Assembly (NCBI RefSeq): GCF_004786015.1
Contig: NZ_CP032096.1
Coordinates: forward strand, 558,001 to 622,000
DNA length: 64,000 nt
Source: Hydrogenovibrio crunogenus
GTDB lineage: Bacteria > Pseudomonadota > Gammaproteobacteria > Thiomicrospirales > Thiomicrospiraceae
Reading direction: 5' to 3'
Each line of letters begins with the position of its first letter. The first letter of the stretch is position 1. Below, in pieces: positions 2,424 through 64,000 of the stretch. A program made the position numbers and the translations under genes. The notes below the pieces were generated by a model. It searched no databases. It had not been told where the DNA came from and saw nothing but the letters and a program-made list of their open reading frames with translations.

Positions 2424-4628
2424 ATGTGTCGTTTTTTTGCAACTGCGCCTAAAGGGTTAAATGAACTGCTTCGAGAGGAGCTGACCACTTTCGGTGCCGA
2501 GAATATCAAAACCCAGCCGACCGGGGCTACTTTTGATGGAGAGTTAGAAGTTGGTTATCGCAGTTGTTTGTGGTCTCGTTTGGCCAATCGGATATATTTG
2601 GTGCTACTGGAAACGGAATTACCGAATCAAGAGGCCTTAAGTTCGGTCGTACAGTCTATTGACTGGTCACAACATTTAGATAAAGAAGGCACTTTTGCCG
2701 TCTCATTTTCTGGGCAGGGACTGGGGATTACACACAGTCATTATGGGGCGTTAAAAATCAAAGATGGGATTGTCGATTATTACCGAGAACATTATCAAGT
2801 GCGACCTTCTATTGACACCGAAGTGCCTGATATTCGAGTGCATGGGCACTTGAATCGTAACCAATTGACGTTAAGTCTGGACTTGTCGGGTTATAGCTTG
2901 CATCAACGTGGATATCGTGAGGGGATTCAAGTTGAAGCGCCCTTGAAAGAAAATGTCGCCGCAGCGATTTTGATGCGCGCCAATTGGCCGGAGATTGCAC
3001 GACAAGGGGGGGCTTTCTACGACCCCATGTGTGGGTCGGGAACCTTTTTAGTGGAAGCTGCTTTGATGGCATCCGATACCGCACCAGGGTTAGCCAAATC
3101 CGGTGAAATGTTATTGAATTACTGGCTGGGACACAATGAATTATTGTGGCAAAACTTGGTTGATGAAGCTGAACAGCGAGAACAGGCTGGTTTAAGGCAT
3201 TTACCGAATATTTATGGTTCCGACATTTCTCATAAGTCATTGGATGTGGCGCGCAACAGTATTCAAGCGGCGGGTTATGATGATGTGATTGAAATCAAGC
3301 AAATGGCAGTTGAACAAGGCCGAAAGTGGGGGGATTGGCAACCCGGTTTGATTGTTTGTAACCCGCCTTACGGTGAGCGTCTTGGAGAAGAAGAGACCGT
3401 TAAACAAGTTTATTTAAAGCTTGGTGAGTATCTGAAGGCGGAATTTGTTCACTGGAAAGCCGCGGTATTGACGTGTCATACCGAGCTGGGCATGTTTTTA
3501 GGCATTAAGGCTAAACGTTCTCATGACTTTTTTAACGGCGCAATGGCGTGTCGTTTATTCCGCTTTGAGATTGAAGAAGAATGGTTTAGGCAGCCGGCGT
3601 TACAGCCCAAACAAGATTTGGCGGAACAGGTTTTGCAACTACAGCCAGATTTGGCTAACACCGACAATGCGAAGATGGTCTCGAACCGTATTCGCAAGAA
3701 TATGAAAGGCTTAAAATCCTGGGTGAAGCAAAATGATATTTCAGCCTACCGCGTGTACGATGCGGATATCCCTGAATATGCTTTAGCCATTGACTTATAC
3801 GACACTTTGGAATCGGGGCTTTGGGTGGTAGTTGCTGAGTATGCGCCGCCGAAAACTGTCAACCCAACCAAAGCCAAGCGCCGTTTGTATGAAGCCATGT
3901 CGGTATTACCCTCGGTCTTTAATGTCTCGCCTGAAAGAATCGTCTTTAAGGTGCGTAGTCAACAAAAAGGTCAGGATCAATATGAGCGTTTGGACGAGCA
4001 AAAAGCGTTCTTCACCATTGTCGAAAACCAAACGCGTTTACGAGTGAATTTTACTGACTATTTAGACACGGGGATTTTTTTGGACCATCGTCAGGTGCGC
4101 CAAGAAGTGGCCAAATTAGCAGCGGGTAAACGGCTGCTGAATTTGTTTTGCTATACCGCAACCGCCACGGCGGAAGCGGTGAAAGCCGGCTGTAAAAGCA
4201 GTTTGAGTTTGGATATGTCAAAAACCTATTTGTATTGGGCAAAACACAATTTTATGTGTAATGACATTAACGAAAAACAGCATGTTTTACAGCAGGAGAA
4301 TGTACTGGAATGGTTGGAGACAGCGACTCAAAACCCGAAAGATTTATTTGATGTGATTTTTTTGGATCCGCCTTCGTTTTCAACGTCGAAACGCATGGAA
4401 GGTACCTTGGATATTCAACGTGACCATGTTGATTTAATTCAAAAAACACTGAAGTTGTTGTCAAAAGATGGCAAACTTATCTTCTCAACCAACTTAAGAA
4501 AATTTAAATTAGATAAGGCAATCTTTGAGCCAGACTATCAAATCGAAAATATCACTCAAAGAACCATGCCAAAAGACTATGCTCGAAATATGAAAATTCA
4601 CCAGGCCTGGCTGTTTTCTCGTCAGTAG
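2424..4628 (+). CDS. rlmL: Bifunctional 23S rRNA methyltransferase RlmKL
   Basis: The N-terminal half should make m2G2445 (RlmL) and the C-terminal half m7G2069 (RlmK) on 23S rRNA, as in enterobacteria. A THUMP RNA-binding region occupies roughly residues 40-155. The first methyltransferase has a DPMCGSG SAM motif near 200 and the catalytic NPPYG motif near 313. The second Rossmann domain has NLFCYTATA near 572 and DPPSF near 648. At 734 residues it is close to E. coli RlmKL (702), so both domains look complete. The last codons contain an exact CCAGGCCTGG palindrome (4601-4610, read as HQAW). Confidence 0.95.
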   Translation: MCRFFATAPKGLNELLREELTTFGAENIKTQPTGATFDGELEVGYRSCLWSRLANRIYLVLLETELPNQEALSSVVQSIDWSQHLDKEGTFAVSFSGQGLGITHSHYGALKIKDGIVDYYREHYQVRPSIDTEVPDIRVHGHLNRNQLTLSLDLSGYSLHQRGYREGIQVEAPLKENVAAAILMRANWPEIARQGGAFYDPMCGSGTFLVEAALMASDTAPGLAKSGEMLLNYWLGHNELLWQNLVDEAEQREQAGLRHLPNIYGSDISHKSLDVARNSIQAAGYDDVIEIKQMAVEQGRKWGDWQPGLIVCNPPYGERLGEEETVKQVYLKLGEYLKAEFVHWKAAVLTCHTELGMFLGIKAKRSHDFFNGAMACRLFRFEIEEEWFRQPALQPKQDLAEQVLQLQPDLANTDNAKMVSNRIRKNMKGLKSWVKQNDISAYRVYDADIPEYALAIDLYDTLESGLWVVVAEYAPPKTVNPTKAKRRLYEAMSVLPSVFNVSPERIVFKVRSQQKGQDQYERLDEQKAFFTIVENQTRLRVNFTDYLDTGIFLDHRQVRQEVAKLAAGKRLLNLFCYTATATAEAVKAGCKSSLSLDMSKTYLYWAKHNFMCNDINEKQHVLQQENVLEWLETATQNPKDLFDVIFLDPPSFSTSKRMEGTLDIQRDHVDLIQKTLKLLSKDGKLIFSTNLRKFKLDKAIFEPDYQIENITQRTMPKDYARNMKIHQAWLFSRQ
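4601..4610. repeat. CCAGGCCTGG palindrome, copy 1 (inside rlmL)
   Basis: Exact 10-bp palindrome, flanked by A and C. It is coding here and starts at a third codon position, giving Gln-Ala-Trp. It is one of eight exact copies in the window. Confidence 0.9.
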
Positions 4629-4691
4629 CCAGTAAAAGGAATTGTCCTTTGTTGCACAAGGACTCTGAACTCAAAAGATAGGTGGCGACGT

Positions 4692-6231: not shown

Positions 6232-7614
6232 ATGGAACAATCTATTCGATTTGATGAAGATCTAATTAAGCGCTATAACCAATCAGGTCCAAGGTATACG
6301 TCTTATCCAACAGCAGTACAGTTTGATGAAACGTTTGGCGTGGCGGACTATCAAGCAGCTGCAGAACGCAGCAATGCATCAGATCGAAATCTCTCATTAT
6401 ATTTTCATATTCCTTTCTGCGATACGGTGTGCTTTTTCTGCGCCTGTAATAAAGTCTGGACACGCGATCGTAGCAAAACCACGCCTTATTTAGCGCGTTT
6501 GTATCAAGAGATCGAAATGCAGGCTAAATTATTTGATTCAAACCGAAAAGTAGACCAGCTGCATTGGGGAGGCGGTACGCCAACTTTTATCAACATGGAT
6601 GAAATGCGAGAATTGATGGCCGTTACCCGTCAGCATTTTAATTTACATGATGATGATTCAGGCGAGTACTCGATTGAAATTGATCCGAGAGAAGCCAATA
6701 AAGAGTCGGTTAAACTATTGCGAGAGCTTGGGTTTAATCGTATGAGCTTAGGGGTTCAAGATTTTGATCCTAAGGTTCAAAAAGCGGTGAATCGTATTCA
6801 AACGGAAGCGCAAACGTTTGAAGTCTTGGAGGGCGCTCGTGAAGCCGGGTTTATGTCGGTGAACGTGGATTTGATTTACGGGTTGCCGCATCAAACCGAA
6901 GCGGGCTTTATGGCAACGTTAGACAAGGTTTTGGAAGTTGCACCAGATCGTTTTTCGATTTTTAACTATGCCCATATGCCGAGCATGTTTCCAACACAGA
7001 AAAAAATGAACGAAGCGGACATGCCTTCACCGGATGAGAAACTGGCCATTTTGCATGCCACAACCAACCGCCTGCTGGAAGCGGGGTATGTTTATATTGG
7101 CATGGATCATTTTGCTAAACCCGACGATGAACTTGCCATTGCTCAACGAAATGAAACCCTTTATCGTAACTTTCAGGGGTATTCTACCCATGCAGAATGC
7201 GATTTGATTGGCATGGGCGCTACCTCGATTTCGTTGATTAATAATACCTATGCGCAGAATTATAAAAGTCTGAATGACTATTATCAGGCGATTGATGCCG
7301 GGCACCTTGCTGTCTTCAGAGGGGTGGAGCTGACTGAAGATGATGAGCTGCGCCGTGATGTGATTACGCGTTTAATCAGTCATTTTCATCTGAATTTCAA
7401 CAGTATTGAAGCTCAGTGGGGTATTGTGTTTAAAGAATATTTTGAGCAAGAAATGAACGCATTGGCTCCAATGATTGAAGATGGCTTGGTTGAATTGTCT
7501 GATTCGGATCTCTATGTCACTGCGGCAGGACGACTCTTAATTCGAAATATTTGTATGGCATTTGATGCTTATTTAAAACAAGGCACACAAAATCGTTTTT
7601 CAAAAGTGATTTAA
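6232..7614 (+). CDS. hemN: Oxygen-independent coproporphyrinogen III oxidase
   Basis: HemN is a radical-SAM enzyme that decarboxylates coproporphyrinogen III to protoporphyrinogen IX without oxygen, for haem synthesis under low oxygen. The radical-SAM motif CDTVCFFC puts cysteines at about 63, 67 and 70. The preceding YFHIPFC and the following GGGTPTF are typical. At 460 residues it matches true HemN (about 457) rather than the shorter HemW. The gene is monocistronic, ending at a perfect 26-bp palindromic terminator shared with convergent waaA. A possible FNR box lies upstream. Confidence 0.95.
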   Translation: MEQSIRFDEDLIKRYNQSGPRYTSYPTAVQFDETFGVADYQAAAERSNASDRNLSLYFHIPFCDTVCFFCACNKVWTRDRSKTTPYLARLYQEIEMQAKLFDSNRKVDQLHWGGGTPTFINMDEMRELMAVTRQHFNLHDDDSGEYSIEIDPREANKESVKLLRELGFNRMSLGVQDFDPKVQKAVNRIQTEAQTFEVLEGAREAGFMSVNVDLIYGLPHQTEAGFMATLDKVLEVAPDRFSIFNYAHMPSMFPTQKKMNEADMPSPDEKLAILHATTNRLLEAGYVYIGMDHFAKPDDELAIAQRNETLYRNFQGYSTHAECDLIGMGATSISLINNTYAQNYKSLNDYYQAIDAGHLAVFRGVELTEDDELRRDVITRLISHFHLNFNSIEAQWGIVFKEYFEQEMNALAPMIEDGLVELSDSDLYVTAAGRLLIRNICMAFDAYLKQGTQNRFSKVI

Positions 7615-7629: not shown

Positions 7630-7655
7630 AAAAATGACCAGGCCTGGTCATTTTT
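7630..7655. terminator. Bidirectional terminator between hemN and waaA built on CCAGGCCTGG
   Basis: Perfect 26-bp palindrome: A5-TGA, then CCAGGCCTGG (7638-7647), then TCA-T5. It offers a U-tract on both strands and sits between the convergent 3' ends of hemN and waaA. Confidence 0.85.
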
Positions 7656-7659
7656 GGGT

Positions 7660-8970
7660 TCATTCTGTTGGCGGAAGTAGTTGACCAATTTCATGCATTA
7701 ATTTCGGTAAAGCCCCGGATTGTTTTTCAAAGCAAGCATAGGCTTCTTCGGCTTTTTGATTGCGCCATTCAGGAGAGTCGGCCAATTGAATCAACTGTTG
7801 AGCCAGTTCGTTTTCATCTTGAGAAATCAAGATGGCTTCGTCTTGTTTGAACGAATCATAGAGCGCTTGCAGGTTTTGATGATACTGTCCAGACAAAACC
7901 GGCTTTTTCAGCGCGGCCGGCTCCAAGATATTATGTCCGCCAAAAGGTACCAGACTGCCACCTATAAATGCAGCGTCACAAGCTGCAAACCAATTCATCA
8001 GTTCTCCAATGGTATCGGCCAAATAAACTTGCGTGTCTGATTGAATCAGTTCATCTTTAGAACGGCTTGCAAACGGGATGTGTTTGTCAGACAGTAAGTC
8101 AGCCACTTCCAAAAATCGATCTGTGTGGCGAGGAACCAGTATCAACAGTGCATTAGGGTGTTGCTGTCTGAGCTGTTGATGCGCTTCTAGCATCAGCGTT
8201 TCTTCTTCCGCATGTGTGCTGGCAGCGACCCAAATGAATTTATTCTCAAGTCCATATTCCTGACGCCATTGTTGCATGTCTGTCATTAAATCTTTTGGGA
8301 TATGAATATCAAATTTTAAGTTGCCCAACTGTTTGATGCGAGCTGGGTGAGCGCCTAGAGCGATTAAATGGTCAGTATCCAGTGCAAACTGGCTGGCAAT
8401 TAAGCGGGTTTGGTTCAGTGCATTGGCAATCAGTTTTCCGCCCCATTTTTGATAGGCATAAAATGATTTTTCTTTTACTCGGGCATTGGCCAAAATTAAA
8501 GGGATTTGCTGATCCCAGCACGCCTGATATAAATTAGGCCAGATTTCTGTTTCCACCATAATCACGAGGCGTGGTTGTAGTTTTTTCAAGAATCGTTTGA
8601 CAGCCCCCGGATAATCATAGGGAATCATCTGATGTTGTATGGGGATAGGTGCAAAACGTAAAGCTTGCTGGGCGCCTTGCGTTGAGCCGTTTGTAACAGT
8701 GATAGGTAAGTCTGGATAGGTTTTTTTAAGTGCTGTCAGTAATGGAAAGATGGAGCGCGTTTCACCCACGGAAACAGCATGCACCCATATACCACCTTGT
8801 TGAAACGGTTGACGACTCCATCCAAAGCGCGCAGCAAAGCAGTGAGGAATGGGGGCATAATCGGAATCTTTTTCAGCCTGCTTTTTCGCTCGATGACAAC
8901 GTTTCCAACCAGAATAAGCAATCAGTGGTGATGCAAGAATCAGTAAGAAACGGTAAAGCCATAAAGACAT
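7660..8970 (-). CDS. waaA: 3-deoxy-D-manno-octulosonic acid (Kdo) transferase
   Basis: WaaA (KdtA) transfers Kdo from CMP-Kdo to lipid IVA at the inner membrane, starting the LPS inner core. The N-terminal hydrophobic segment (residues 2-19) is the usual membrane anchor. The GT-B fold follows, with HAVSVGET containing the conserved glutamate and GGHNILEPA in the nucleotide-binding half. The length of 436 is close to E. coli WaaA (425). The start is 15 bases after the kdsD stop, so pagL-like, kdsD and waaA probably form one minus-strand operon linking Kdo supply to its transfer. Confidence 0.93.
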   Translation of the reverse strand: MSLWLYRFLLILASPLIAYSGWKRCHRAKKQAEKDSDYAPIPHCFAARFGWSRQPFQQGGIWVHAVSVGETRSIFPLLTALKKTYPDLPITVTNGSTQGAQQALRFAPIPIQHQMIPYDYPGAVKRFLKKLQPRLVIMVETEIWPNLYQACWDQQIPLILANARVKEKSFYAYQKWGGKLIANALNQTRLIASQFALDTDHLIALGAHPARIKQLGNLKFDIHIPKDLMTDMQQWRQEYGLENKFIWVAASTHAEEETLMLEAHQQLRQQHPNALLILVPRHTDRFLEVADLLSDKHIPFASRSKDELIQSDTQVYLADTIGELMNWFAACDAAFIGGSLVPFGGHNILEPAALKKPVLSGQYHQNLQALYDSFKQDEAILISQDENELAQQLIQLADSPEWRNQKAEEAYACFEKQSGALPKLMHEIGQLLPPTE

Positions 8971-16877: not shown

Positions 16878-18242
16878 ATGTCGCACAAAAAAGCAGGTGT
16901 TTTACTCCATCCCACATCATTGCCTTCAGGTAGGTTGGATGAGCAGGCCTGGCGGTTTCTAGACTGGATGGCGCAAGCACATCTGTCCGTTTGGCAAATG
17001 CTGCCGTTAACCCATCCTGTGCAAGGATTGTCGCCTTATCAAAGTGTTTCTGCCTTTGCGATGAATCCCGCTTTACTGCCGGTCAACTGGTTAGAGATGA
17101 TTGATGAAGAAACGTTTCAGTCGTTTGAACAGGAACCACCACACTGGTTAAATGATTATGCTTTATTTATGGCTTTGCGGCAGCATTTTAAGATGACTTC
17201 TTGGGCAGAATGGCCAGATGCATATCGCTACCGTGATTTTGAGGCTTTGACGTTATTTGCAGAAACGCATGCGTATGAAATTCGATTTTTAAAAAAGCAG
17301 CAATTCGTGCTACGTCAAATATGGCAGAATCTGAAAGACACTGCGCATGAAAAAGGGATTACCCTGTTTGGAGATATGCCTATTTTTGTCGCCTATGACA
17401 GTGTTGATGTTTGGGCAAACCCACATTTATTTAAACTGGATGACGACCTCAATCCAACAGTTGTGACCGGCGTCCCCCCTGATTATTTTTCTGAAACAGG
17501 ACAACGTTGGGGAAATCCGCATTATGATTGGCAAGAGATGCAAAAAGATGGGTTTAAATGGTGGCATCATCGCATTCAATCTGACTTGTCGTTGTTCGAT
17601 TTGATTCGAATTGATCACTTCAGGGGACTGGAAGCGAGCTGGGAAATTGCAGTGGATGAAGAAACAGCGGTGAATGGGCATTGGGTGAAAGTGCCCGGGC
17701 AATTGTTTTTAGATTCTTTACAACAGGCCTTTCCTAAACTCCCCTTGGTCGCAGAAGACTTAGGTATTATCACGCCTGAAGTGATGGCATTGAAAGAGCG
17801 ATATCATTTACCCGGTATGTCAGTGCTTCAATTTGGTTTTAATGGATTGCCTGATAATCCTCATGCCTTGGCAGAACAGGTTGAAAATTCCGTGGTATAT
17901 ACCGGAACACATGATAATGACACCAGTTTGGGATGGTGGAATTCGTTAGAGGATAATGACTATAAACAGTGGGTGTCATCACAATTGCCTGCTTCTGAAG
18001 ACCCGATGCCTTGGCCCCTGATTGAAGCCGCTTTTCAATCGGTTGCTTATTTGGCGATGATACCGATGCAGGATTTTTTGAGTTTGGGAGCCGAGGATCG
18101 AATGAACACACCAGGTACGGTTGAAAATAATTGGACTTGGCAGTTCAGATGGGATCAAGTTTCGTCAGAAATAACTGAAAAAATCGCAGGCCTGGTCAAT
18201 GCTTCAGATCGAGATGCGACACGAGAGGGTGCTGTTTTATGA
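16878..18242 (+). CDS. malQ: 4-alpha-glucanotransferase (amylomaltase)
   Basis: MalQ (GH77) transfers maltooligosaccharide segments between alpha-glucans, releasing glucose. The N-terminal [10 protein letters not shown] is typical of the short bacterial type. The catalytic nucleophile is expected in IRIDHFRGL (Asp), the acid in LVAEDLG (Glu), and YTGTHDNDT follows. At 454 residues it is slightly shorter than many plant and bacterial amylomaltases (about 500). A strong AAGGAAGAG ribosome binding site is present. It overlaps the glgB start by four bases (ATGA). Two near-copies of the CCAGGCCTGG palindrome lie inside the gene. Confidence 0.95.
16944..16952. repeat. Near-copy of the CCAGGCCTGG palindrome (malQ, 5' end)
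   Basis: GCAGGCCTGG (one mismatch, first base) followed by C. It is coding for Gln-Ala-Trp, the same reading as in rlmL and the HlyD-like gene. Confidence 0.6.
18187..18195. repeat. Near-copy of the CCAGGCCTGG palindrome (malQ, 3' end)
   Basis: GCAGGCCTGG (one mismatch, first base) followed by T. It is read as Ala-Gly-Leu-Val, a different frame from the first malQ copy. Confidence 0.6.
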
Positions 18243-21910: not shown

Positions 21911-21983
21911 GTTAGAAGTTGGTTTTTATTTTGGCAATGACGCCTGAATCTTTTTATTCAAAAATTTGAAGTGTGAGGTCATT

Positions 21984-24482
21984 ATGGCGCAGAACAAAAA
22001 ATCCGTACCAAGTACAAAGCAAGAAAAACACATTGCAGAATTACTCAAAAAAATGGGTATGAGTGTGACCGATATCGAACAAGACTTTGTGAACTATCTT
22101 TACAATATGCTTGGACGTGATATTCACTCTGATCCTTATGATCAATTTAAAGCAATGTCTTATACCATTCGTGACCGGCTGATGACATACTGGAAAGAAA
22201 CTTGGAATGCCTATAACAAAGATAAAACGAAAAAAGCTTATTATCTTTCGATGGAATTTCTTATTGGTCGCTCTTTGTCGAATAATCTACTCAACTTAGG
22301 AATTGAAACGGAAACAGAAAAGGCCATGTATCGTTTAGGTGCTTCCTTGGAGGCAATAGAGGAGGCTGAACGAGATGCCGGGCTCGGTAATGGCGGGCTT
22401 GGACGATTAGCGGCTTGCTTTATGGATTCATGCGCAACCCTACAACTTCCCGTTATTGGGTATGGATTGCGCTATGAATATGGCATGTTCAAACAATTGA
22501 TTCAGAATGGCTTTCAAATTGAAGAGCCAGACCATTGGTTAGGGTTTGGTTACTACCCATGGGAAATTCAACGCTCGGAATATACGCGTACCGTTTATTT
22601 CGGGGGGCGCAGTCGCCATTACAAAGATCCTCACACCGGCGAGTTGACGGTGCATTGGGAAGACGCTGAAGAAGTATTAGCCGTACCGTTTGATGTTCCG
22701 ATTCCCGGGTTTGAAAATAAAACTGTGAATACATTGCGCTTATGGTCAGCGGAGGCCGCAGAAGGCTTTAATTTGTCAGAGTTTAACCAAGGCTCCTACT
22801 TTGAAGCGGTGGCAAGCAAAAGCGAAGCAGAAAATATTACCATGGTTCTTTACCCTAACGACAGTAGTGAGAACGGTAAAGAGTTACGGTTGCGTCAGCA
22901 ATATTTTCTTGTGTCGGCCTCCTTGCAAGATGTGGTCAGCCAATGGTCAGAAAAATATGGCAATGATTTCTCCGATTTTGCTGAATATAATGTTTTCCAA
23001 TTAAATGATACACACCCCAGTTTAGCCGTTGCTGAACTGATGCGAATTTTAATTGACGACAAAAAACTTTCCTGGGAAGCCGCCTGGACTATTGTCAGTC
23101 AGTCAATGGCTTATACCAATCATACTTTATTGCCTGAAGCGTTAGAGCGCTGGCCGGTTTCATTATTTAATAAACTCCTTCCGAGAGTGTTAGAAATTAT
23201 TTATGAAATCAATGCTCGGTTTTTAAAACTGGTTGCTATGAAATGGCCGGGTGATCAAGCGAGACAGGCACGCATGTCGATTATAGATCCCGATGATAAT
23301 GTCTGTATGGCGTATTTAGCGATTGTTGGCAGTTTTTCGATTAACGGGGTGGCTGCGCTTCACTCCCAGCTTCTCAAAGAAGGGTTGTTTCATGAGTTTT
23401 ATGAACTATGGCCTGAGCGGTTTAATAATAAAACCAATGGCGTTACGCAAAGACGCTGGATGGCGAGCAGTAATCCAGGATTAAAAGCGCTCTTGAATGA
23501 AAAAATCGGTCGTCACTGGATAACCGATTTAACGCAACTCAGTAAAATCGAATCTTTTGTAAATGACAAATCTTTCCGACAAGAATGGATGCGAGTCAAG
23601 CGAGAGAATAAACAACGCCTGGCGGATATGGTAGAAAAAGACACTGGTGTGAAGTTTGATGTTACGGCTTTATTTGATGTACAAGTCAAACGTATCCATG
23701 AATATAAACGACAACTGTTGAATGTTCTGCATGTCATTCACCTGTATGCCCGAATTAAACGAGGGGATACAGATAACTGGACCAATCGTTGTGTGATTAT
23801 TGGCGGAAAGGCGGCACCTGGATATGTCATGGCCAAAAAAATCATTAAATTGATTAATAATGTTGCCGAGGTCGTTAACAACGATCCGGATGTTGGGGAC
23901 AAGCTTAAGTTGGTTTTTATACCCAATTACCGAGTGTCGGCCATGGAAATCATTTCCCCTGGTGCGGACTTGTCTGAACAGATTTCCACCGCCGGAAAAG
24001 AAGCTTCTGGAACGGGAAATATGAAATTCATGATGAATGGTGCCATTACCATCGGCACATTGGATGGGGCCAATGTTGAGATTTTAGAAGCCGTAGGAGA
24101 GGAGAACTTTTTCTTATTTGGTTTGAAAACACCTGAAGTAGCCAAGCTTCGTGGCCATTATTACCCTGAAAACTTCATTGAAGAAGACAGTGATTTGCAA
24201 GCAGTGTTCAGTTTACTGGAATCGGGCCACTTTAACCAATTTGAACCGGGCTTATTTGACGATATTATCAATTCTATGAAAAGTTCGAAGGATCCTTGGA
24301 TGACGCTGGCTGATTTTAGAAGTTATGTGAACGCTCAGCATGAAGTTGCATTGGCCTTTCAAAATCATAGTCGTTGGAATACGATGAGCATTATTAATTC
24401 GGCGCGAAGTGGTATTTTCTCAACAGATCGTACCATGCAAGAATATAACGACGATATTTGGAAATTGACTCCTATTAAATGA
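21984..24482 (+). CDS. glgP: Glycogen/starch/alpha-glucan phosphorylase
   Basis: GlgP releases glucose 1-phosphate from glycogen chain ends using phosphate and PLP. EASGTGNMKFMMNGA holds the PLP-binding lysine, and GLGNGGLGRLAACFMDS is the conserved N-terminal block. I choose the ATG at 21984 (MAQNKK) because GAGG lies just before it. A longer frame from 21966 is possible but lacks support. The product is 832 residues (E. coli GlgP 815). As last gene of the operon, it places synthesis and breakdown enzymes on one transcript, followed by two terminators. Confidence 0.96.
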   Translation: MAQNKKSVPSTKQEKHIAELLKKMGMSVTDIEQDFVNYLYNMLGRDIHSDPYDQFKAMSYTIRDRLMTYWKETWNAYNKDKTKKAYYLSMEFLIGRSLSNNLLNLGIETETEKAMYRLGASLEAIEEAERDAGLGNGGLGRLAACFMDSCATLQLPVIGYGLRYEYGMFKQLIQNGFQIEEPDHWLGFGYYPWEIQRSEYTRTVYFGGRSRHYKDPHTGELTVHWEDAEEVLAVPFDVPIPGFENKTVNTLRLWSAEAAEGFNLSEFNQGSYFEAVASKSEAENITMVLYPNDSSENGKELRLRQQYFLVSASLQDVVSQWSEKYGNDFSDFAEYNVFQLNDTHPSLAVAELMRILIDDKKLSWEAAWTIVSQSMAYTNHTLLPEALERWPVSLFNKLLPRVLEIIYEINARFLKLVAMKWPGDQARQARMSIIDPDDNVCMAYLAIVGSFSINGVAALHSQLLKEGLFHEFYELWPERFNNKTNGVTQRRWMASSNPGLKALLNEKIGRHWITDLTQLSKIESFVNDKSFRQEWMRVKRENKQRLADMVEKDTGVKFDVTALFDVQVKRIHEYKRQLLNVLHVIHLYARIKRGDTDNWTNRCVIIGGKAAPGYVMAKKIIKLINNVAEVVNNDPDVGDKLKLVFIPNYRVSAMEIISPGADLSEQISTAGKEASGTGNMKFMMNGAITIGTLDGANVEILEAVGEENFFLFGLKTPEVAKLRGHYYPENFIEEDSDLQAVFSLLESGHFNQFEPGLFDDIINSMKSSKDPWMTLADFRSYVNAQHEVALAFQNHSRWNTMSIINSARSGIFSTDRTMQEYNDDIWKLTPIK

Positions 24483-24509: not shown

Positions 24510-24534
24510 AACCAGCCAGGCCTGGTTGTTTTTA
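24510..24534 (+). terminator. Terminator 1 after glgP containing CCAGGCCTGG
   Basis: AACCAG pairs with CTGGTT around a 6-base loop. An exact palindrome copy (24516-24525) lies inside, and a T-rich run follows (GTTTTTAT). Confidence 0.7.
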
Positions 24535-29156: not shown

Positions 29157-29185
29157 AAAAATGACCAGTCCTGGTCATTTTTCGT
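29157..29185 (+). terminator. Terminator after ectC with a variant palindrome
   Basis: A5-TGACCAG-TC-CTGGTCA-T5 hairpin. The core CCAGTCCTGG (29165-29174) differs from the recurring palindrome by one base. It lies between ectC and the aspartokinase, so the latter may depend on read-through or on its own promoter. Confidence 0.8.
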
Positions 29186-33708: not shown

Positions 33709-34215
33709 ATGAAAAAAGCGATATGGTCATTGAGCGGAACGATTGTCTTGATGGCAATGATGACACCCGTTTTTGCTAAAACCATTCAAATTGGTGCTTT
33801 GGTGGCCGGTCAGGTTGAAAAGGTTTATGTTCAAGCCGGTCAACAGGTTAAACCGGGACAGTTGTTAGTTAAAATTGACGATACTCGTTATCAGGCAAAG
33901 ATGAAAGTCTTGCAAGCCAGTGTTGAAATGACGCGTTTAAAATTGGCAGATGCGAAAATTGAATTGGATCAAGCGTTAGATTTATATGATAGAACGGTTT
34001 CGGCCAAGCGAGAGTTGGATGCGGCTCAGCTTGCTTATGATGTCGCGCAACAATTGCACTTAAAAGCCCAAGCAGAACTTGAAATGAGCCAGGCCTGGTC
34101 AAAATATTATGTGATAAAAGCCCCGGTGGCAGGCAAAATTAAAACGATTGATGCGCCAAAAGGGGCGACCGTTTATAAAGAAAATACCCCAGTCATTCAG
34201 ATTGAAGCACCTTAA
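33709..34215 (+). CDS. Minimal HlyD/RND-type periplasmic adaptor
   Basis: Adaptor proteins link an inner-membrane pump to TolC. A signal peptide ends near residue 23 (PVFA). Two half-lipoyl segments are visible: VEKVYVQAGQQVKPGQLLVKID and IKAPVAGKIKTIDAPKGATV. A short helical hairpin (about 60-130) lies between them. At 168 residues it lacks the beta-barrel and membrane-proximal domains of usual adaptors (about 350-400). It may be a degenerate or specialised adaptor. It contains an exact CCAGGCCTGG at 34089-34098. It lies 22 bases after the TolC gene. Confidence 0.78.
   Translation: MKKAIWSLSGTIVLMAMMTPVFAKTIQIGALVAGQVEKVYVQAGQQVKPGQLLVKIDDTRYQAKMKVLQASVEMTRLKLADAKIELDQALDLYDRTVSAKRELDAAQLAYDVAQQLHLKAQAELEMSQAWSKYYVIKAPVAGKIKTIDAPKGATVYKENTPVIQIEAP
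34089..34098. repeat. CCAGGCCTGG palindrome inside the HlyD-like gene
   Basis: Exact copy, flanked by G and T, coding for Gln-Ala-Trp (starts at a third codon position). Confidence 0.9.
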
Positions 34216-44968: not shown

Positions 44969-45895
44969 ATGCAAACAATGAGTGATCGTGACGGATTTAT
45001 CTGGCTTGATGGAGAGATGGTTGATTGGCGTGATGCTAAAACGCACGTTTTAACCCATACCTTACATTATGGGATGGGAGTCTTTGAAGGTGTCAGAGCT
45101 TATGAAGCCGAGCAGGGAACCTCTATTTTCCGTTTAGAAGCCCATACAGATCGCTTGTTTAACTCCGCAAAGATTATGAATATGCCGATGCCGTATTCAA
45201 AAGAAGAATTGAATGAGGCGCAACGTGCTGCGGTGCGAGATAATGATTTGAAGTCAGCTTATATTCGTCCGATGGTTTTTTATGGTTCGGAAGGAATGGG
45301 GTTGAGAGCCGACAATCTGAAAACACATGTTATGGTTGCTGCCTGGGAGTGGGGTGCCTACATGGGTGAAGAAAACCTTCAAAAAGGGATTAAGATTGCG
45401 ACTTCCTCTTTTACGCGTCATCATGTCAATGTGACAATGACAAAAGCCAAGTCAAATGGGGCTTATATGAATTCGATGCTGGCGTTGCAAGAAGCGGTCA
45501 GTCACGGATGCGATGAAGCGTTGTTGCTGGATACGGAAGGATATGTGTCTGAAGGGTCTGGAGAAAATTTCTTTATGGTGAAGGATGGCATTATTTTTAC
45601 CCCTGAGTTGACTTCTGCGCTAGATGGAATTACGCGTAAAACGATTATGCAGTTGGCGAAAGAAGCAGGGTATGAAGTGCGTGAAAAGCGCATCACGCGC
45701 GATGAAGTGTATATTGCGGATGAAGCTTTTTTCACCGGAACGGCCGCTGAAGTCACGCCGATTCGTGAACTAGATAATCGTCCAATTGGTCAGGGAAGTC
45801 GTGGTCCAGTGACCGAGTTGCTTCAGGCAAAATACTTTGATGTTGTGCATGGCCGTTCACAGCAACATTTAGATTGGTTAACCACAGTGGTTTAA
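44969..45895 (+). CDS. ilvE: Branched-chain amino acid aminotransferase
   Basis: IlvE transaminates Leu, Ile and Val with 2-oxoglutarate. It is a fold-type IV PLP enzyme. Its N-terminal DGEMVDWRDAKTHVLTHTLHYG segment is typical, the PLP lysine is expected in TMTKAKSNGAYMNS, and VSEGSGENFF follows. The length of 308 matches E. coli IlvE (309). An AGAAGGA ribosome binding site is present; a second in-frame ATG is at 44978. It is followed by a zinc-ribbon gene. Confidence 0.95.
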   Translation: MQTMSDRDGFIWLDGEMVDWRDAKTHVLTHTLHYGMGVFEGVRAYEAEQGTSIFRLEAHTDRLFNSAKIMNMPMPYSKEELNEAQRAAVRDNDLKSAYIRPMVFYGSEGMGLRADNLKTHVMVAAWEWGAYMGEENLQKGIKIATSSFTRHHVNVTMTKAKSNGAYMNSMLALQEAVSHGCDEALLLDTEGYVSEGSGENFFMVKDGIIFTPELTSALDGITRKTIMQLAKEAGYEVREKRITRDEVYIADEAFFTGTAAEVTPIRELDNRPIGQGSRGPVTELLQAKYFDVVHGRSQQHLDWLTTVV

Positions 45896-46146: not shown

Positions 46147-46156
46147 CCAGGCCTGG
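46147..46156. repeat. CCAGGCCTGG palindrome after the zinc-finger gene
   Basis: Exact copy in the spacer, extended to AGCCAGGCCTGGCT. It has no T-run of its own; the terminator hairpin follows 16 bases later. Confidence 0.9.
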
Positions 46157-46281: not shown

Positions 46282-47688
46282 TTAAGAAGAGTAGTACATG
46301 TCAAACTCAATTGGGTGAGTTGTTGCACGCATACGAGTCACTTCTTCCATCTTAAGGCTGATATATGAATCAATTGCTTCATCAGTGAAGACGCCACCAG
46401 CTTTCAAGAATTCTCTGTCTGCATCAAGTGCAGCCAAAGCTTCTTCTAAAGATGCACAAACTGTTTCGTATGTTGCTTCTTCTTCTGGCGGTAGATCATA
46501 TAGATCTTTTTCAGCAGGCTCGCCTGGATCGATTTTATTCATGATACCGTCAAGTCCAGCCATCAATGACGCTGAGAATGCTAAGTATGGGTTCGCTGTT
46601 GGATCAGGGAAGCGTAACTCAACACGACGAGAGCGTTCTGAAGGTGCATAAGGGATACGAATCGATGCAGAACGGTTTGAACCTGAGTAAGCCAATAAAA
46701 TTGGTGCTTCAAAGCCTGGTACCAGACGCTTATATGAGTTAGTACCTGGGTTTGTGAAGGCGTTCAATGCACGCGCATGCTTCATTAGACCACCGATATA
46801 CCATAGCGCTTCTTGAGAAAGACCTGCGTAGACATCTCCTGCAAAAATGTTTTTACCATTTTTAGATAAAGATTGGTTGATGTGCATACCTGAACCGTTA
46901 TCGCCAACGATTGGCTTAGGCATGAATGTCGCTGTTTTTCCTAACGCTTGACAAGTGTTGTGTACGGCATATTTTAGAATTTGTACTTCGTCCGCTTTAG
47001 CCGTTAATGTATTACCAGCAACGGCTAACTCACATTGTCCACCTGATGCTACTTCGTGGTGATGTGCTTCTAGTTTTAAGCCCATTGCTTCAGCCATGGC
47101 GCAAATATCTGCACGCACTTCGTGTAGTTGGTCAACCGGTGGTACTGGGAAGTATCCGCCTTTTACTTTAGGGCGGTGACCAATGTTTCCACCTTCAAAT
47201 ACTTTTTCAGAGTTCCATGCCGCTTCGTTACCATCTAATTTTACAAAGCAACCAGACATGTCCGCGCCCCAACGAACGTCATCAAAGATAAAGAATTCTG
47301 GTTCAGGACCGAAGAAAGCAGAATCGGCGATGCCTGTTGATGCTAGATACGCTTCAGCATTCTTTGCGATGCCGCGAGGATCTTTTTCGTAAGCTTCCAT
47401 AGTTGAAGGTTCAACAATCATGCAGCGAATGATTAGTGTTGGATCATTCGTGAAAGGGTCTAGATAGAAACCGTCTGTTTGCGGCATTAATAACATATCT
47501 GAGTTATGAATCCCTTTCCAGCCCTGGATTGAAGAACCGTCAAAAGTTTCACCGTCAGCGAAGAAGTCTTCATCTACGCTGTCAGCAGGAATGGTCACAT
47601 GTTGCTCTTTACCGTGAGTGTCGGTAAAGCGAAGATCTACCCATTTAACGTCATTGTCTTTGATTAAATCAAAAATTTCTTGCGACAT
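46282..47688 (-). CDS. glnA: Glutamine synthetase, type I
   Basis: GlnA makes glutamine from glutamate, ammonia and ATP as a dodecamer. [11 protein letters not shown], the ATP-binding [12 protein letters not shown], and [14 protein letters not shown] are typical. The adenylylation tyrosine is present in DLYDLPPEE, so activity is probably controlled by GlnE. The length of 468 matches E. coli (469). It is a single gene with a terminator and a sigma-54-like promoter upstream. Confidence 0.97.
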
Positions 47689-57706: not shown

Positions 57707-58675
57707 ATGAAACGCAATCTATTAATTGCAATGGGACTAGCTGCAGCAGTTGTCTCTAACCCTGTTTTTGCCGCTGGTGTTGATTCTAATATTCCAGATT
57801 ACAAGAAAGTTTCTGGTGTTTCTGGAAACCTATCTTCTGTCGGGTCTGATACCTTAGCAAACCTAATGACACTTTGGGCGGAAGAGTTCAAGCGTACTTA
57901 CCCTAATGTGAACATCCAGATTCAAGCGGCTGGTTCTTCTACTGCACCTCCAGCTCTAACGGAGTCAACGTCAAACATTGGTCCTATGAGCCGTAAAATG
58001 AAGTCTAAAGAAACAGCTATGTTTGAGAAGAAGCATGGTTATAAGCCAACAGCAATCGGCGTTGCAATTGATGCGTTAGCAGTTTACGTTAACAAAGACA
58101 ACCCAATCAAAGGACTGACAATTCCACAAGTGGATGCCATTTTCTCTTCAACTCGTAAGTGTGGTTCAAAAGAAACGATTACAACTTGGGGCCAAGCTGG
58201 TTTAACAGGGGATTGGAAAAACAAATCTGTTCAGCTTTATGGACGTAACTCAGTTTCTGGAACTTACGGTTACTTTAAGAAGAAAGCGCTTTGTAAAGGG
58301 GACTACAAGTCTTCTGTGAATGAGCAACCAGGTTCAGCATCAGTTGTTCAGTCTGTTTCTTCTTCTCTAAACGGGATTGGTTATTCTGGTATCGGTTATA
58401 AAACTGCCGGTGTTAAAGCGGTGCCTCTAACGAAAAAAGAAGGTAAGCCTTTTGTTGAAGCAACACCTAATAATGCTTTGAATGGAACGTATCCTTTGGC
58501 ACGCGTACTTTACGTTTATGTTAACAAAGCACCGAATAAGCCTTTAGAGCCTGTTGTGAAAGAGTTCTTGAACTTGGTTCTTTCTAAAAAAGGTCAGCAA
58601 GACGTGGTAAAAGATGGATATATCCCACTACCAGCTAAAATGGTTGAAAAATACCGTGCAATCGTAAACAAGTAA
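57707..58675 (+). CDS. pstS: Phosphate ABC transporter substrate-binding protein
   Basis: PstS binds phosphate in the periplasm and feeds PstCAB. A signal peptide ends at about residue 23 (VFAAG). [12 protein letters not shown] and [21 protein letters not shown] form the phosphate-binding N-lobe, and [13 protein letters not shown] the C-lobe site. The length of 322 is usual. It is separated from pstCAB by the PiT gene and has its own Pho box and terminator, which allows much higher expression. Confidence 0.95.
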
Positions 58676-58722: not shown

Positions 58723-58742
58723 TTATGGCCGAAAAAAATACT

Positions 58743-58751
58743 CAGGCCTGG
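58743..58751. repeat. Near-copy of the palindrome after pstS
   Basis: TCAGGCCTGG, one mismatch from the recurring word, in the spacer between the pstS terminator and the ferredoxin gene. Confidence 0.55.
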
Positions 58752-59165: not shown

Positions 59166-59996
59166 ATGACGTGGAGTGAATTCCAGTTCAAGTTTCAACA
59201 TATTCGTGATAACAAGTTATTTGAATTGTTTGTCATCACTGTCATTATCTTATCATCCTTGATGATCGGGCTTAAGACTTATGATTTGCCCTCAGGTGTC
59301 ATGACGTTTTTATGGGTGATGGATTATGCAGTAACGGTTTTCTTTTTAATTGAAATCCTGATTCGAATGGCCGCCGAAGACCGGTTGGTCGATTTCTTTA
59401 AAAAAGGCTGGAATATTTTCGACTTTACCATCGTGGTGGTGAGTTTGATTCCATTGGATGACTCGCAATATGCGTTGATTGCCCGTATGTTACGTTTATT
59501 CCGGGTGATGCGTTTGATTTCCTTTATCCCTGAGTTGAGGGTATTGGTGAGCGCATTGATCAGCGCTTTGCCTCGCATGGGGTATGTTGCCTTGTTGATG
59601 TTTATTATTTTCTATTTGTATGCCGTGATCGGTAATCTGTTGTTTGCGCAAATCAATCCAACTTTGTGGGGCGATTTAGGTATTTCTTTATTGACGCTAT
59701 TCCGAGTTGCAACGTTTGAAGACTGGACCGATGTCATGTATGAAACCATGGCGGTTTATAGTTTGAGTTGGATTTATTATTTGACCTTCATTTTCTTCTC
59801 GGCTTTTGTTTTTTTGAATATGATGATCGGAATCGTGGTGGAAGTGCTAGATGAAGAACATAAGAAGATGATTGCGTTGGAAGAGGAAGTGGCAAGCAAC
59901 GAAGTGATGGCGCATCACGAAAAACTAGAACGTGAAGTGGCTGATTTGCATCGAAAAATTGACGTTTTAATTCAACAGTCCTCGAAAGGTTCTTAA
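59166..59996 (+). CDS. Voltage-gated Nav/Cav-type ion channel
   Basis: Single-domain bacterial channels assemble as tetramers. Helices S1-S6 are visible. S4 has arginines every third residue in ARMLRLFRVMRLISFIPELR. The pore has the selectivity filter TFEDWTD, which differs from NaChBac/NavAb (TLESWSM/TLESWAS) and carries Asp at two positions used in the engineered calcium channel CavAb. S6 (about 195-225) is followed by a C-terminal coiled coil (about 230-270). The length of 276 is typical. Selectivity for calcium is inferred only. Confidence 0.9.
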   Translation: MTWSEFQFKFQHIRDNKLFELFVITVIILSSLMIGLKTYDLPSGVMTFLWVMDYAVTVFFLIEILIRMAAEDRLVDFFKKGWNIFDFTIVVVSLIPLDDSQYALIARMLRLFRVMRLISFIPELRVLVSALISALPRMGYVALLMFIIFYLYAVIGNLLFAQINPTLWGDLGISLLTLFRVATFEDWTDVMYETMAVYSLSWIYYLTFIFFSAFVFLNMMIGIVVEVLDEEHKKMIALEEEVASNEVMAHHEKLEREVADLHRKIDVLIQQSSKGS

Positions 59997-60022: not shown

Positions 60023-60048
60023 AAAAACGGCCAGGCCTGGCCGTTTTT
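60023..60048. terminator. Bidirectional terminator between channel and DsrE-like gene built on CCAGGCCTGG
   Basis: Perfect 26-bp palindrome: A5-CGG, CCAGGCCTGG (60031-60040), CCG-T5. It lies between convergent genes, the same design as at 7630-7655. Confidence 0.85.
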
Positions 60049-60067: not shown

Positions 60068-60577
60068 TTACCAAACCAGCAATTTGTAACCGTTTTCTTG
60101 TAGTGCGACTAGCGCGGCCGCACCCACTTCAGAATATTCTGCAAATAGACGCATGTCGGCATCAGTCCAATTTAACGTTCTCATCGTGTTACCACACGCA
60201 ATCCAGCGCACGCCATAATCTTTGGCAAAGCTGGCAATACGTTGATAAGTGAGTTTTTCAACTTTACGTTGCGGTTTTTTAGCCAGGGCGTGAATGCCGG
60301 GGCCGATGGCAACCACCGCAATTTGAACATTGCTTCCATATAATCGAATCATTGCTTGAATGGAATTCAAAATATGATGTTGGTAGTCAGGATCGGACTT
60401 GTTCCACATATAAACCGCTTTATGTTCAGCCGGATCCCCGGGGAAATGATCAGATGATATATCTGCCAATTCCGGCATCGGTTTAAGCTGATGTGCTGGC
60501 TGACCATCGGCACTTGCTTGGGCATTTAATACCCACATACTTAACGCTAAGATTGCAAAGGATTTAATAAAAGACAT
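60068..60577 (-). CDS. Exported DsrE/DsrF-like protein
   Basis: DsrE-type proteins carry sulfur or thiol groups in some sulfur oxidisers. A signal peptide (about 1-22, ending ASA) suggests a periplasmic form. The Rossmann-like core shows SIQAMIRLYG and IAVVAIGPGIHAL, with a single cysteine in WIACGNTMRTL, the expected position for a sulfur-carrying residue. At 169 residues it is complete. It is monocistronic. The link to sulfur chemistry is inferred from the family only. Confidence 0.75.
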   Translation of the reverse strand: MSFIKSFAILALSMWVLNAQASADGQPAHQLKPMPELADISSDHFPGDPAEHKAVYMWNKSDPDYQHHILNSIQAMIRLYGSNVQIAVVAIGPGIHALAKKPQRKVEKLTYQRIASFAKDYGVRWIACGNTMRTLNWTDADMRLFAEYSEVGAAALVALQENGYKLLVW

Positions 60578-60673
60578 GACTTCTCTCCTAATTCAGTTTA
60601 GAAAGCGGTTTGAAAATATTATACTCTGCCTGAACGCCAATAGATTAAAGAGATTTTAATAAGGAAACATAAA

Positions 60674-60979
60674 GTGTCATTACAGCAACAAATCGAAAAC
60701 AAAATCAACGGCGCATTTGACGTTACATTTATGCAAATGGAAAATGAAAGTCATATGCACTCGGGACCGGCACAAGAATCGCATTTTAAGCTTACTCTGG
60801 TGTCGCCAGCGTTCGAGGGGATGAATAAAGTGAAACGTCATCAAGCTGTTTACAAGGCATTGGCAGAGGAGATGCCGTTATTTCATGCGTTGGCGTTGCA
60901 TACGTATTCCCCTTCGGAATGGGAAGAGAAACCGACGGTAGCCGCTTCTCCACTTTGTCAGGGCGGAAGCAAGGCTTAA
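60674..60979 (+). CDS. bolA: BolA-family protein
   Basis: BolA proteins work with monothiol glutaredoxins in iron-sulfur handling and affect cell shape. HSGPAQESHFKLTLVSPAFEG includes conserved histidine and the class-II fold, and NKVKRHQAVYKALAEEM follows, then HALALHTYSPSEW. The length of 101 matches BolA (105). The start is GTG with AAGGAAA upstream. It is separate from the neighbouring genes on the other strand. Confidence 0.92.
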   Translation: MSLQQQIENKINGAFDVTFMQMENESHMHSGPAQESHFKLTLVSPAFEGMNKVKRHQAVYKALAEEMPLFHALALHTYSPSEWEEKPTVAASPLCQGGSKA

Positions 60980-60985
60980 ATTGTA

Positions 60986-61624: not shown

Positions 61625-61675
61625 AATAAGAATCTTTTGACGCCAGCGCTCCCAAATTTTTAAGAGTACCTGATT

Positions 61676-62401
61676 ATGACCGAATCGCTGTCTACCATTT
61701 TGTCGGATAAATCCGTCGATCAATCGTTGGAAAATGAGCCTGTTTTGACTTTGGAAAAGGTACATTATCATGTCTCATCTGATGAAGAAGTGCTGTCTAT
61801 CATAAAGGGCTGTGATTTATCTGTCCAGCTAGGTGAAAAGCTGGCGATTGTCGGGCGCTCCGGTTCAGGAAAGTCCACTCTATTGGCGCTGATGGCCGGA
61901 TTGGAATTGCCTTCTTCTGGTGAAATCCGATTGCTTGGTCAAGCGCTTAGCCAGTTAAATGAAGATGAGCGTGCCAAAGTGAGAGCAATGGCGGTCGGAT
62001 TTGTGTTTCAGAATTTTCAATTGATGCCGAGTATGACCGCTTTAGAGAATGTGTTGATGCCGCTGGAGCTTTTTCAAATGCCCAATGCGGAGCAAGAAGC
62101 CAGAAAAGCACTGCAACGGGTCGGTCTGTCCAACCGTTTGACTCATCGTCCATCAGAGTTGTCAGGCGGGGAGCAACAACGCGTGGCGATTGCACGGGCA
62201 TTTGTGACAGGTCCCAAAATTTTATTTGCCGATGAACCGACGGGTAACCTCGATGAAGCCACTGCGGGAGAAATACAAACGCTTTTGTTCCAACTCAATG
62301 ATGAGTTGAAAACTACCTTGATCCTGGTAACACATGATAATCGTTTAGCGCAGCAATGTGACCGTGCATTGTCTTTACAAAATGGACAGTTACGCGGATG
62401 A
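61676..62401 (+). CDS. ABC transporter ATP-binding protein, LolD/YbbA-like
   Basis: This is the nucleotide-binding partner of the following permease. It has Walker A GRSGSGKST, signature LSGGEQQR, Walker B ILFADEPTGNLD, and the H-loop THD. The family (MacB/LolD type) acts in lipoprotein release or envelope functions. The E. coli YbbA gene also lies divergent from tesA, and the same order here makes YbbA the best match. It overlaps the permease start by four bases (ATGA). Confidence 0.9.
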   Translation: MTESLSTILSDKSVDQSLENEPVLTLEKVHYHVSSDEEVLSIIKGCDLSVQLGEKLAIVGRSGSGKSTLLALMAGLELPSSGEIRLLGQALSQLNEDERAKVRAMAVGFVFQNFQLMPSMTALENVLMPLELFQMPNAEQEARKALQRVGLSNRLTHRPSELSGGEQQRVAIARAFVTGPKILFADEPTGNLDEATAGEIQTLLFQLNDELKTTLILVTHDNRLAQQCDRALSLQNGQLRG

Positions 62402-64000
62402 AGCATGCTTATTTTATTGAAGCTCTGACCGCCTCAAAATGGTTTTTGCGTGGCATAAAGCGTGGTGATTGGGTTTGGTTGTTACTGGCGGTGGTGATTG
62501 CCAGCGCAACCGTTACCTTTGTGGAAAAGCTAGGGCAAACGGTCAAACAAAGTATGGTTCGGCAAGCGGCTAATAATCTCGGAGCCGATTATGTCATTCG
62601 CAGTTCGCGACCGATTGATTCTAAATGGGTGCAAAAAGCCCAACAGCTTGAACTGGAAATCGCTCAGAGCCAAAGCCTGGTCACAATGGCATTAAGTGAT
62701 GGTCAGTTTCAACTGGTGCAGTTAAGAGCTGTCTCTGCCAACACGCCTTTACGCTCTCCAACGAACTCCTTCCCTAAAGTCTCAGGTGCGAACCAGGTTT
62801 GGGTTGAACAAAATCTGGTGCCGATGTTGAATTTATCAAAGGGCAGCGAGGTGACCTTAGGTAAACAAACTTTTTCTGTAGCGGGAATGTTCCAGCCGAT
62901 CAGCAGTGGTATTGGCATGAGTGCCTTTGCCTATCAGATGATCATTCCGCTGTCACAGTTAGCCACTACCGATTTGAAAGGACCAGGAAGTCGTATTGAA
63001 TATGAGCTGTCTGTTGCAGGAAAGCCGACGGCCATTAAAGCCTTTGCTCAGCAAGTTGAACAAGCGCAAAACCCACACTTGCAGACGCTTTCTGCTCAAG
63101 CTCCTTCGCAGGATTTGGCCAAATCGCTTGATACAGCTTGGCTATTTTTAGAGTTGTCGGCCTTATCGGCGGTTATGGTTGCCGGACTATCCATTTTGAT
63201 TGCCAGTCGGTTTTATTTACAACGTTGGCAGAACTCCATTGCCTTGATGCGTGCATTTGGCGCACAAAGGGCGCAAATGAGTCGGTTGTTTGCGTTTCAG
63301 TTAAGTTGGTTGGCTATTTTAGGCAGTGGAATGGGGGTTCTGCTTGGTATCGGATTATTTCAATTTGTTATTCCTGTGTTGCATTCTTATTTCAATTCTC
63401 TTGTGATTGCTGATTCAGGTTGGGTGTATTTGCATGGCTTTTTAATGGGCTTTTTGGTGTTGTGGGGGTTTGCTTGGCAAGCGTTTCGCAGTGCAGTGCA
63501 AACCTCTCCGTTACAGCTTCTGAAATCGGTGGGTTCGGCGCCTAAAATGAAGCAATGGTTAATCAGTCTGGGGCTGGTGTTGACCGTGGTGGTTTCCATG
63601 ACAGGTTATGTTTTTTGGGTATTGATAGGCCTGCTTATTACCGGAACGGTGCTTTATTTTGCTGCGGTTGGTTTGTTGAAGCTCGTGCAGCTCTCACAAG
63701 GCAAAAGCAAGGGGTGGTTGAAACTTTCGTTGGCGGCCTTGTCGAAAGAGCCAGGCCTGGTTAAAATTCAATTGATTTCAATCGGGCTGGTATTGTTTGT
63801 GTTGATGTTAATGACGTTTGTACGTCAAGATTTGATGCAGAACTGGCAGACCTCTTTGCCCAAGAACACCCCGGATACGTTTCTAGTCAACGTCCAACCG
63901 GATCAAAAACAAACAGTAATCCAATTGTTAACACGTCATCAAATAAACGCGCCTCTGGTTCCGATGGCGAGGGGACGTCTGGTGGCGGTAAATGACTCTC
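62398..64000 (+). CDS. ABC transporter permease, YbbP/FtsX-like (3'-partial)
   Basis: The frame opens at ATG 62398, overlapping the ATPase stop, and stays open to the window end (534 codons seen). A first membrane helix (about 26-45, WLLLAVVIASATVTFV) is followed by a periplasmic MacB-like domain (about 60-235). FtsX-type helices follow (about 250-270, 300-325, 335-360 and 390 onward). YbbP-type permeases are about 800 residues, so roughly a third is missing. The gene contains an exact CCAGGCCTGG. No shorter ORF on either strand competes with it. Confidence 0.9.
   Translation, partial: MKHAYFIEALTASKWFLRGIKRGDWVWLLLAVVIASATVTFVEKLGQTVKQSMVRQAANNLGADYVIRSSRPIDSKWVQKAQQLELEIAQSQSLVTMALSDGQFQLVQLRAVSANTPLRSPTNSFPKVSGANQVWVEQNLVPMLNLSKGSEVTLGKQTFSVAGMFQPISSGIGMSAFAYQMIIPLSQLATTDLKGPGSRIEYELSVAGKPTAIKAFAQQVEQAQNPHLQTLSAQAPSQDLAKSLDTAWLFLELSALSAVMVAGLSILIASRFYLQRWQNSIALMRAFGAQRAQMSRLFAFQLSWLAILGSGMGVLLGIGLFQFVIPVLHSYFNSLVIADSGWVYLHGFLMGFLVLWGFAWQAFRSAVQTSPLQLLKSVGSAPKMKQWLISLGLVLTVVVSMTGYVFWVLIGLLITGTVLYFAAVGLLKLVQLSQGKSKGWLKLSLAALSKEPGLVKIQLISIGLVLFVLMLMTFVRQDLMQNWQTSLPKNTPDTFLVNVQPDQKQTVIQLLTRHQINAPLVPMARGRLVAVNDS
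63751..63760. repeat. CCAGGCCTGG palindrome inside the YbbP-like gene
   Basis: Exact copy, flanked by G and T, read as Pro-Gly-Leu-Val (starts at a first codon position). Confidence 0.9.

Follow-up and report, generated by a model that had tools for sequence, protein, structure and literature searches.

A palindromic ten-base word and its dialects in Hydrogenovibrio and its relatives: probable core of a DNA uptake sequence

Why does one 10-bp palindrome, CCAGGCCTGG, recur over the whole of a 64,000-nucleotide stretch of the chromosome of Hydrogenovibrio crunogenus, a deep-sea sulfur bacterium? The stretch, here called the window, comprises bases 558001-622000 of a genome of 2,453,259 bp assembled as a single contig. 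A sequence-only reading of the window had listed eight exact copies of the word, all of which are where it placed them, and had offered four explanations: a DNA uptake word, a highly iterated palindrome, a methylation target or a binding site for an unknown protein. The evidence assembled below favours the first of these. We consider it likely, from comparison of the sequences, that in Hydrogenovibrio and its relatives the word forms the core of a DNA uptake sequence which exists in several dialects.

The excess over chance that had been claimed for the window is borne out, with eight copies against 0.01 expected from dinucleotide shuffles and 0.047 from a trinucleotide Markov model. The count in the complete genome, by which the earlier reading had proposed to judge the word against a Markov model, is 367, or one copy per 6.7 kb, compared with about 2 expected (Markov, scaled from 840 kb) and 0 for a reversed-pattern control. 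Detailed anatomy, placement and spacing were taken from the first 840 kb of the genome, which holds 122 exact copies against 0.67 expected (Markov). The split of these 840 kb into coding (83%) and intergenic sequence comes from a home-made gene call, and product names of open reading frames (ORFs) in the window are our own reading of their translations.

When the copies are aligned, the core extends to a longer unit, AAAAANNRCCAGGCCTGGYNNTTTTT, which is A-rich from −8 to −4, has a pyrimidine at −3 and a purine at −1, and continues through the core into its own mirror image. The reported flank of a purine before and a pyrimidine after the word is present at all eight window copies and weakens to a mere tendency over the 122, where the preceding base, counted on both sides, is A in 0.45, G in 0.41, C in 0.12 and T in 0.01 of cases. 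At least one tract accompanies 44 of the 56 copies inside called genes and 58 of the 66 intergenic ones, and both tracts accompany 12 and 46, respectively. Copies with a changed first base are enriched (24 with C changed to G, 1.3 expected). Of the 34 first-base-changed copies, 26 have a T-tract next to the intact end and 7 have an A-tract next to the damaged one, the background for such a tract being 17%. Since the T-tract of these one-off copies keeps mainly to the intact end, the unit is best taken to be directional, core first and T-tract after it, with the full palindrome amounting to two such readings that overlap. The A/T tracts, like the placement after stop codons described below, had gone unmentioned in the sequence-only reading, and the dialects were not visible to it; its four one-mismatch copies are correct, but a fifth at 47518 (CCAGCCCTGG) was overlooked.

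High counts of CCAGGCCTGG are confined to one family among the genomes searched. In a family sample of 34 genomes, 15 carry 263-747 copies and the other 19 carry 0-37, and the maximum among 271 gammaproteobacteria outside the family is 39. Even within the genus sample (11 genomes of the source's own genus, g1, taken as Hydrogenovibrio) four members, G001, G004, G008 and G010, have 0-1 copies. The half-word with its T-tract, CCTGGYNRWTTT, is nevertheless present 200-523 times (both strands) in all 11 genomes whatever their spelling, with 1-13 for the reversed control; elsewhere in the family it reaches 338 in G013 and 149 in G033.

De novo k-mer searches of genome samples were used to find the other spellings. 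In G001 and G010 the spelling is CCCCAACCTGGYAGATTTT, with CCAGGTTGGG counted 13 and 15 times per 100 kb in the unmasked k-mer list, masking at 22 bases having removed genuine copies. G004 uses CCCAGCCTGGCAGATTTT (CCAGGCTGGG, 8 copies in 100 kb, listed after repeat masking); in bases 1-100000 of contig C1 of this genome a repeat dominates the k-mer list, its words occurring about 26-28 times and some 55 or more. For G008 the spelling is CCCACCCCTGGYGATTTT or near it. Some 34 kb of unmasked sequence from this genome holds four copies, among them the orthologue of the window site at 4601, and a single near-copy; a first sample, about one third masked, was uninformative. The spellings of these four genomes have the CCTGG half and the T-tract in common and none is palindromic. 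The de novo search also gave ACCAGGCCTGGTAA for G033 and a AACAGGCCTGTT-like word for G021. The words of G031 (ACCGGCCGGTAA, 21 copies in 60 kb where 0.04 are expected) and G029 (AACAGGCCGGGT, 6 in 20 kb, not a palindrome) do not retain CCTGG with the T-tract. A weak CAGGCGCGCCTG in G016, of genus g7 (3 in 27 kb), is possibly another dialect, and two samples were of little use, that of G017 being fully masked and that of G019 only 4 kb long. The exact word was also present in 9 of 19 named loci examined, including all four named Thiomicrospira, as ACCAGGCCTGGT or near; we take genus g6 to be Thiomicrospira on its resemblance to the ACCAGGCCTGGT form alone. Because the spellings of near relatives share this half and the T-tract without being palindromes, and because the one-off copies are directional, the palindromic form and the two back-to-back CCWGG sites pointed out in the sequence-only reading are probably incidental.

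At some orthologous sites one of these spellings stands in place of another. Window sites were compared with 27 related sequences, those that did not align being counted apart, and a dialect swap was found at four loci in all: window positions 4601 and 7638 and genome positions 116516 and 51937. Two of these lie within genes, each with an amino-acid change. At window 4601 the exact word is present in 15 sequences and replaced by CCAGGGGTGGG at the same codons in G008, where HQAW reads HQGW (alignment translated by eye); it is lost through synonymous changes in G004, and 10 sequences were unaligned. At window 7638 the exact word occurs in G007, the local spelling in G010 and G001, an inverted local pair in G004 and none in G008, with 22 unaligned. 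The gene at genome 116516 reads PGLADLK with the word in the source genome and PSLADLK with the G004 spelling in G004 (again translated by eye), and at 51937, between genes, G010 carries its own spelling opposite the word. Since copies are common in convergent gaps as a class (29 copies, 71 gaps), the two coding loci are the cleaner evidence of exchange.

Counted over mappable copies, other spellings coincide with words of the source genome in 2 of 7 cases for G010, 1 of 1 for G001, 3 of 5 for G004 (two being one pair), 1 of 1 for G008 and 1 of 3 for G021, the rate for random positions being 0.02-0.9%. Among all directed pairs of 11 genomes, which are repeated comparisons of few loci, same-dialect copies coincide in 65 of 115 aligned cases. 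In four relatives with the same spelling, words of the source genome lying within alignments survive in all 9 cases, compared with 5-6% of all aligned 10-mers (few distinct sites, unaligned words uncounted). The sequence-only reading had regarded loss at aligned positions in close relatives as fatal to its proposal; the word is retained where the spelling is shared, but is often absent, and sometimes locally respelled, where it is not.

Placement of the word introduces a further explanation, that the copies are intrinsic terminators of one family, built on a preferred stem. Intergenic copies make up 54% of the total (66 of 122) although 83% of the 840 kb is coding, and 29 of the 66 sit in convergent gaps. 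Of these 66, 52 lie at most 60 bp from a stop codon, compared with 17% of random intergenic positions, and the mean folding energy over 40 nt is −12.2 kcal/mol for these copies against −4.7 kcal/mol for random intergenic sequence. Each 20-kb sample of G001, G004 and G010 holds one inverted pair of the local spelling, 24-27 bp apart and outside long open frames, like the inverted pairs described for DNA uptake sequences in PMC3630211. Against terminators, 56 copies lie within called genes, where 44 have one tract or both, and termination needs neither a fixed core nor dialects. We therefore think terminators a very improbable account of the word, and termination is unlikely to be its sole role.

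Spacing over the 840 kb is more even than random, with a coefficient of variation of 0.78 against 0.99 (p 0.0015) and 3 gaps below 1 kb where 16.5 are expected. Taken with the anatomy and the dialects, the unit of the genus is a GC-rich core, three bases and a T-tract, which is abundant, over-evenly spaced and spelled in lineage-specific dialects. The biggest word-free stretch, 39 kb at 323.5-362.5 kb, contains ribosomal-protein, tuf and rpoBC-like genes (by reading of translations), a content that rules out a mobile element as its cause. Two low-GC islands of 17.7 and 13.9 kb hold no word, against about 2.6 and 2.0 expected from the mean spacing, which is not significant.

An even spread and the 26-bp symmetric unit of many intergenic copies could also be expected of a site for a DNA-binding or chromosome-organising protein whose specificity changes fast. 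In our judgement the directionality, the placement after stop codons and the exchange of spellings fit uptake words better, and we hold such a protein site to be rather unlikely. No replication strand bias was detected in bases 1-840,000 (76 + against 65 −, assuming one replichore with its origin at base 1; the assembly begins at dnaA according to the part of PMC6501319 consulted), and this speaks against a Chi (RecBCD) role or a Chi-like one.

The perfect palindrome with its nested sites recalls a different class, the highly iterated palindromes of the HIP1 type. Here, a resident methyltransferase acting on the palindrome or on an inner CCWGG, GGCC or AGGCCT, together with methyl-directed repair, would raise the frequency of the word, with a precedent in Elhai's model of HIP1 as set out in the text seen of PMC4390886. 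Further palindromic words occur in the family (ACCGGCCGGT in G031 and the AACAGGCCTGTT-like word in G021), and the source genome has two C5-methyltransferases; two such genes lie in the word-free 13.9-kb low-GC stretch (genome 414477-428400, outside the window). However, in a survey confined to the C5 class (PF00145), methyltransferases were found in 4 of the 15 high-copy genomes, one of which has just fragments, and were not found in the other 11. The proposal of a methylation target loses ground as far as that class is concerned. The word is moreover palindromic where CCAGGCCTGG is used but not in G001, G004, G008, G010 or G029, T-tracts also stand beside coding copies, and the one-off copies are directional. 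A HIP1-type origin is accordingly improbable in our view. A look for phage avoidance was not informative, CCAGGCCTGGYNRTTTTT being present in 6 stretches of a viral collection of 2.9 million contigs, about chance by a rough estimate.

Competence genes that an uptake sequence would call for are at hand. ComEC is encoded in all 11 genus genomes and in 32 of the 34 family genomes, and DprA in all 34, once as a fragment. The source genome has four secretion-type ATPases, one of them PilT-like, and an MSHA-like pilus cluster (named by sequence reading). Of its nine pilin-like proteins, none is basic apart from those read as GspH and GspI. One copy of the word, at genome position 528938, falls within a 305-aa pilin-like gene (528367-529281, outside the window) in a cluster of acidic pilins; this gene has a match in 25 of 37 genomes, and we claim no link with dialect. 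The traits of the uptake class found here are the excess over Markov expectation, a unit directional in its sequence, lineage dialects, terminator-like hairpins at gene ends and competence machinery, and on these we provisionally place the word among the DNA uptake sequences (DUS) and uptake signal sequences (USS).

Several observations weigh against this assignment. Competence genes are widespread and are thus permissive rather than specific. The transformation gene comM (our naming; ChlI and Mg-chelatase parts by Pfam) is interrupted in the source strain by an element resembling a transposon. This low-GC element of 17.7 kb (genome 222416-241814, outside the window) carries TniB, ORC-CDC6-like and Eco57I-type modification genes and near-perfect 18-bp inverted repeats by both ends. 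Palindromic cores are not known to be typical of either DUS or USS. No match to FimT/GspH (PF12019) was obtained in any of the 11 genomes of the genus, a search that did not extend to ComP and ComN; the MSHA-like pilins are acidic, and neither the profile search nor the pilin survey yielded a receptor candidate for the word. In genus g6 the count of CCTGGYNRWTTT is low (31-65) and the word copies lack the T-tract. De novo search yielded no word in 79, 20 and 80 kb of G012, G018 and G024, despite the presence of ComEC and DprA in these genomes. At orthologous sites, none of five mappable G031 copies coincides with a word of the source genome. In the directed comparisons among 11 genomes, cross-dialect copies agree in position in 10 of the 88 aligned cases and in 10 of the 23 gap-bracketed ones, so that most differ (78 of 88 and 13 of 23), and same-dialect copies in gaps coincide in 1 of 8. 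Uptake or transformation data for Hydrogenovibrio and relatives were absent from the literature matches listed. Finally, DUS and USS have a density of about one per kb, as given in the text consulted of PMC1626085, against one per 6.7 kb here. We note that no paper listed in searches with the literal word, with CAGGCCTGG and uptake, or with genus and family terms describes the word in its title or abstract.

The copies within the window are collected in Table 1.

Table 1. Exact and one-mismatch copies of the word in the window (window coordinates).
Copy	Position	Strand	Context
exact CCAGGCCTGG	4601..4610	no strand	within 3' end of ORF 2424..4628, RlmKL-like; word reads HQAW
exact CCAGGCCTGG	7638..7647	no strand	convergent gap between ORFs 6232..7614 (+, HemN-like) and 7660..8970 (−); aaaaatgaCCAGGCCTGGtcattttt
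exact CCAGGCCTGG	24516..24525	no strand	34 bp past ORF 21966..24482; right-hand T-tract
exact CCAGGCCTGG	34089..34098	no strand	within ORF 33709..34215
exact CCAGGCCTGG	40632..40641	no strand	within ORF 39473..41557, DnaX-like
exact CCAGGCCTGG	46147..46156	no strand	convergent gap between ORFs 44969..45895 (+) and 46282..47688 (−, glutamine-synthetase-like)
exact CCAGGCCTGG	60031..60040	no strand	convergent gap between ORFs 59166..59996 (+) and 60068..60577 (−); aaaaacggCCAGGCCTGGccgttttt
exact CCAGGCCTGG	63751..63760	no strand	by window end, past last listed ORF 61676..62401; partial A/T tracts
one-off GCAGGCCTGG	16943..16952	+	T-rich tract adjoins intact end
one-off GCAGGCCTGG	18186..18195	+	A-tract at damaged end only; breaks directional rule
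one-off CCAGTCCTGG	29165..29174	no strand	tracts on both sides (aaaaatga...tcattttt)
one-off TCAGGCCTGG	58742..58751	+	tracts on both sides; past ORF 57707..58675
one-mismatch CCAGCCCTGG	47518..47527	no strand	without tracts; possibly chance

If the word does serve DNA uptake, a receptor on the cell surface, acting together with ComEC and a pilus that can retract, would read the core plus T-tract; it would bind the core, and the T-tract may ease bending of the duplex at the pore. Fragments bearing the local word would then enter and recombine more often, and copies would spread by biased transformation, a form of molecular drive. Where the taste of the receptor shifts, words would come to be rewritten in place. 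In the palindromic dialect either strand of each copy could be read, and copies placed after stop codons may double as terminator hairpins.

Two known systems resemble the uptake word proposed here. The DUS of Neisseriaceae (GCCGTCTGAA and variants), as described in the portion of PMC3630211 consulted, is likewise a word of 10-12 bases with family dialects around a short invariant piece, and it too forms inverted pairs at terminators, some of them as overlapping dyad pairs. Its core is unrelated and, according to PMC1626085, it has no flanking motif, whereas the Hydrogenovibrio word has a T-tract; DUS number thousands, while here there are hundreds of copies with a palindromic main dialect, known from sequence alone. 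The USS of Pasteurellaceae (AAGTGCGGT / ACAAGCGGT), which in the same partial text of PMC1626085 has two AT-rich segments about one helical turn apart, shares the order of core then T-tract and the lineage dialects. Two dialects here also have a second, weak T-rich segment roughly one helical turn further along: at +14 to +18 the values are 0.45 against 0.30 in G010/G001 and, weakly, 0.39 against 0.26 in G004. The differences are again an unrelated core, the lack of that second segment in the one-off copies of the source genome (0.28 against 0.27) and a density about one seventh that of USS. Cyanobacterial HIP1 and the alternate HIPs (PMC4390886, in the part seen) are also short, GC-rich, over-represented palindromes with other palindromes in some relatives; they differ from the present word in its non-palindromic dialects, A/T tracts and directional one-off copies, and in that no C5-methyltransferase was found in the 11 high-copy genomes noted above.

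Neisseria and Pasteurellaceae are called unique in needing uptake words in the available part of PMC3630211. Whether the present word adds a third, independent family of uptake sequences, in free-living marine sulfur oxidisers, seems to us evenly poised. Such a family would consist of words made of a core and a T-tract, with a palindromic main dialect, readable from either strand, and five or more further spellings within one bacterial family; the words would be respelled where they stand, even when this alters an amino acid, and the receptor would be unlike ComP, FimT or ComN. If this is true, the several spellings in one genus would offer a natural experiment in shifting uptake specificity, and in whether the words owe their spread to drive or to selection. 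The organisms live freely as chemolithoautotrophs, complete genomes exist for some of them, and the word might be of use in transforming them in the laboratory.

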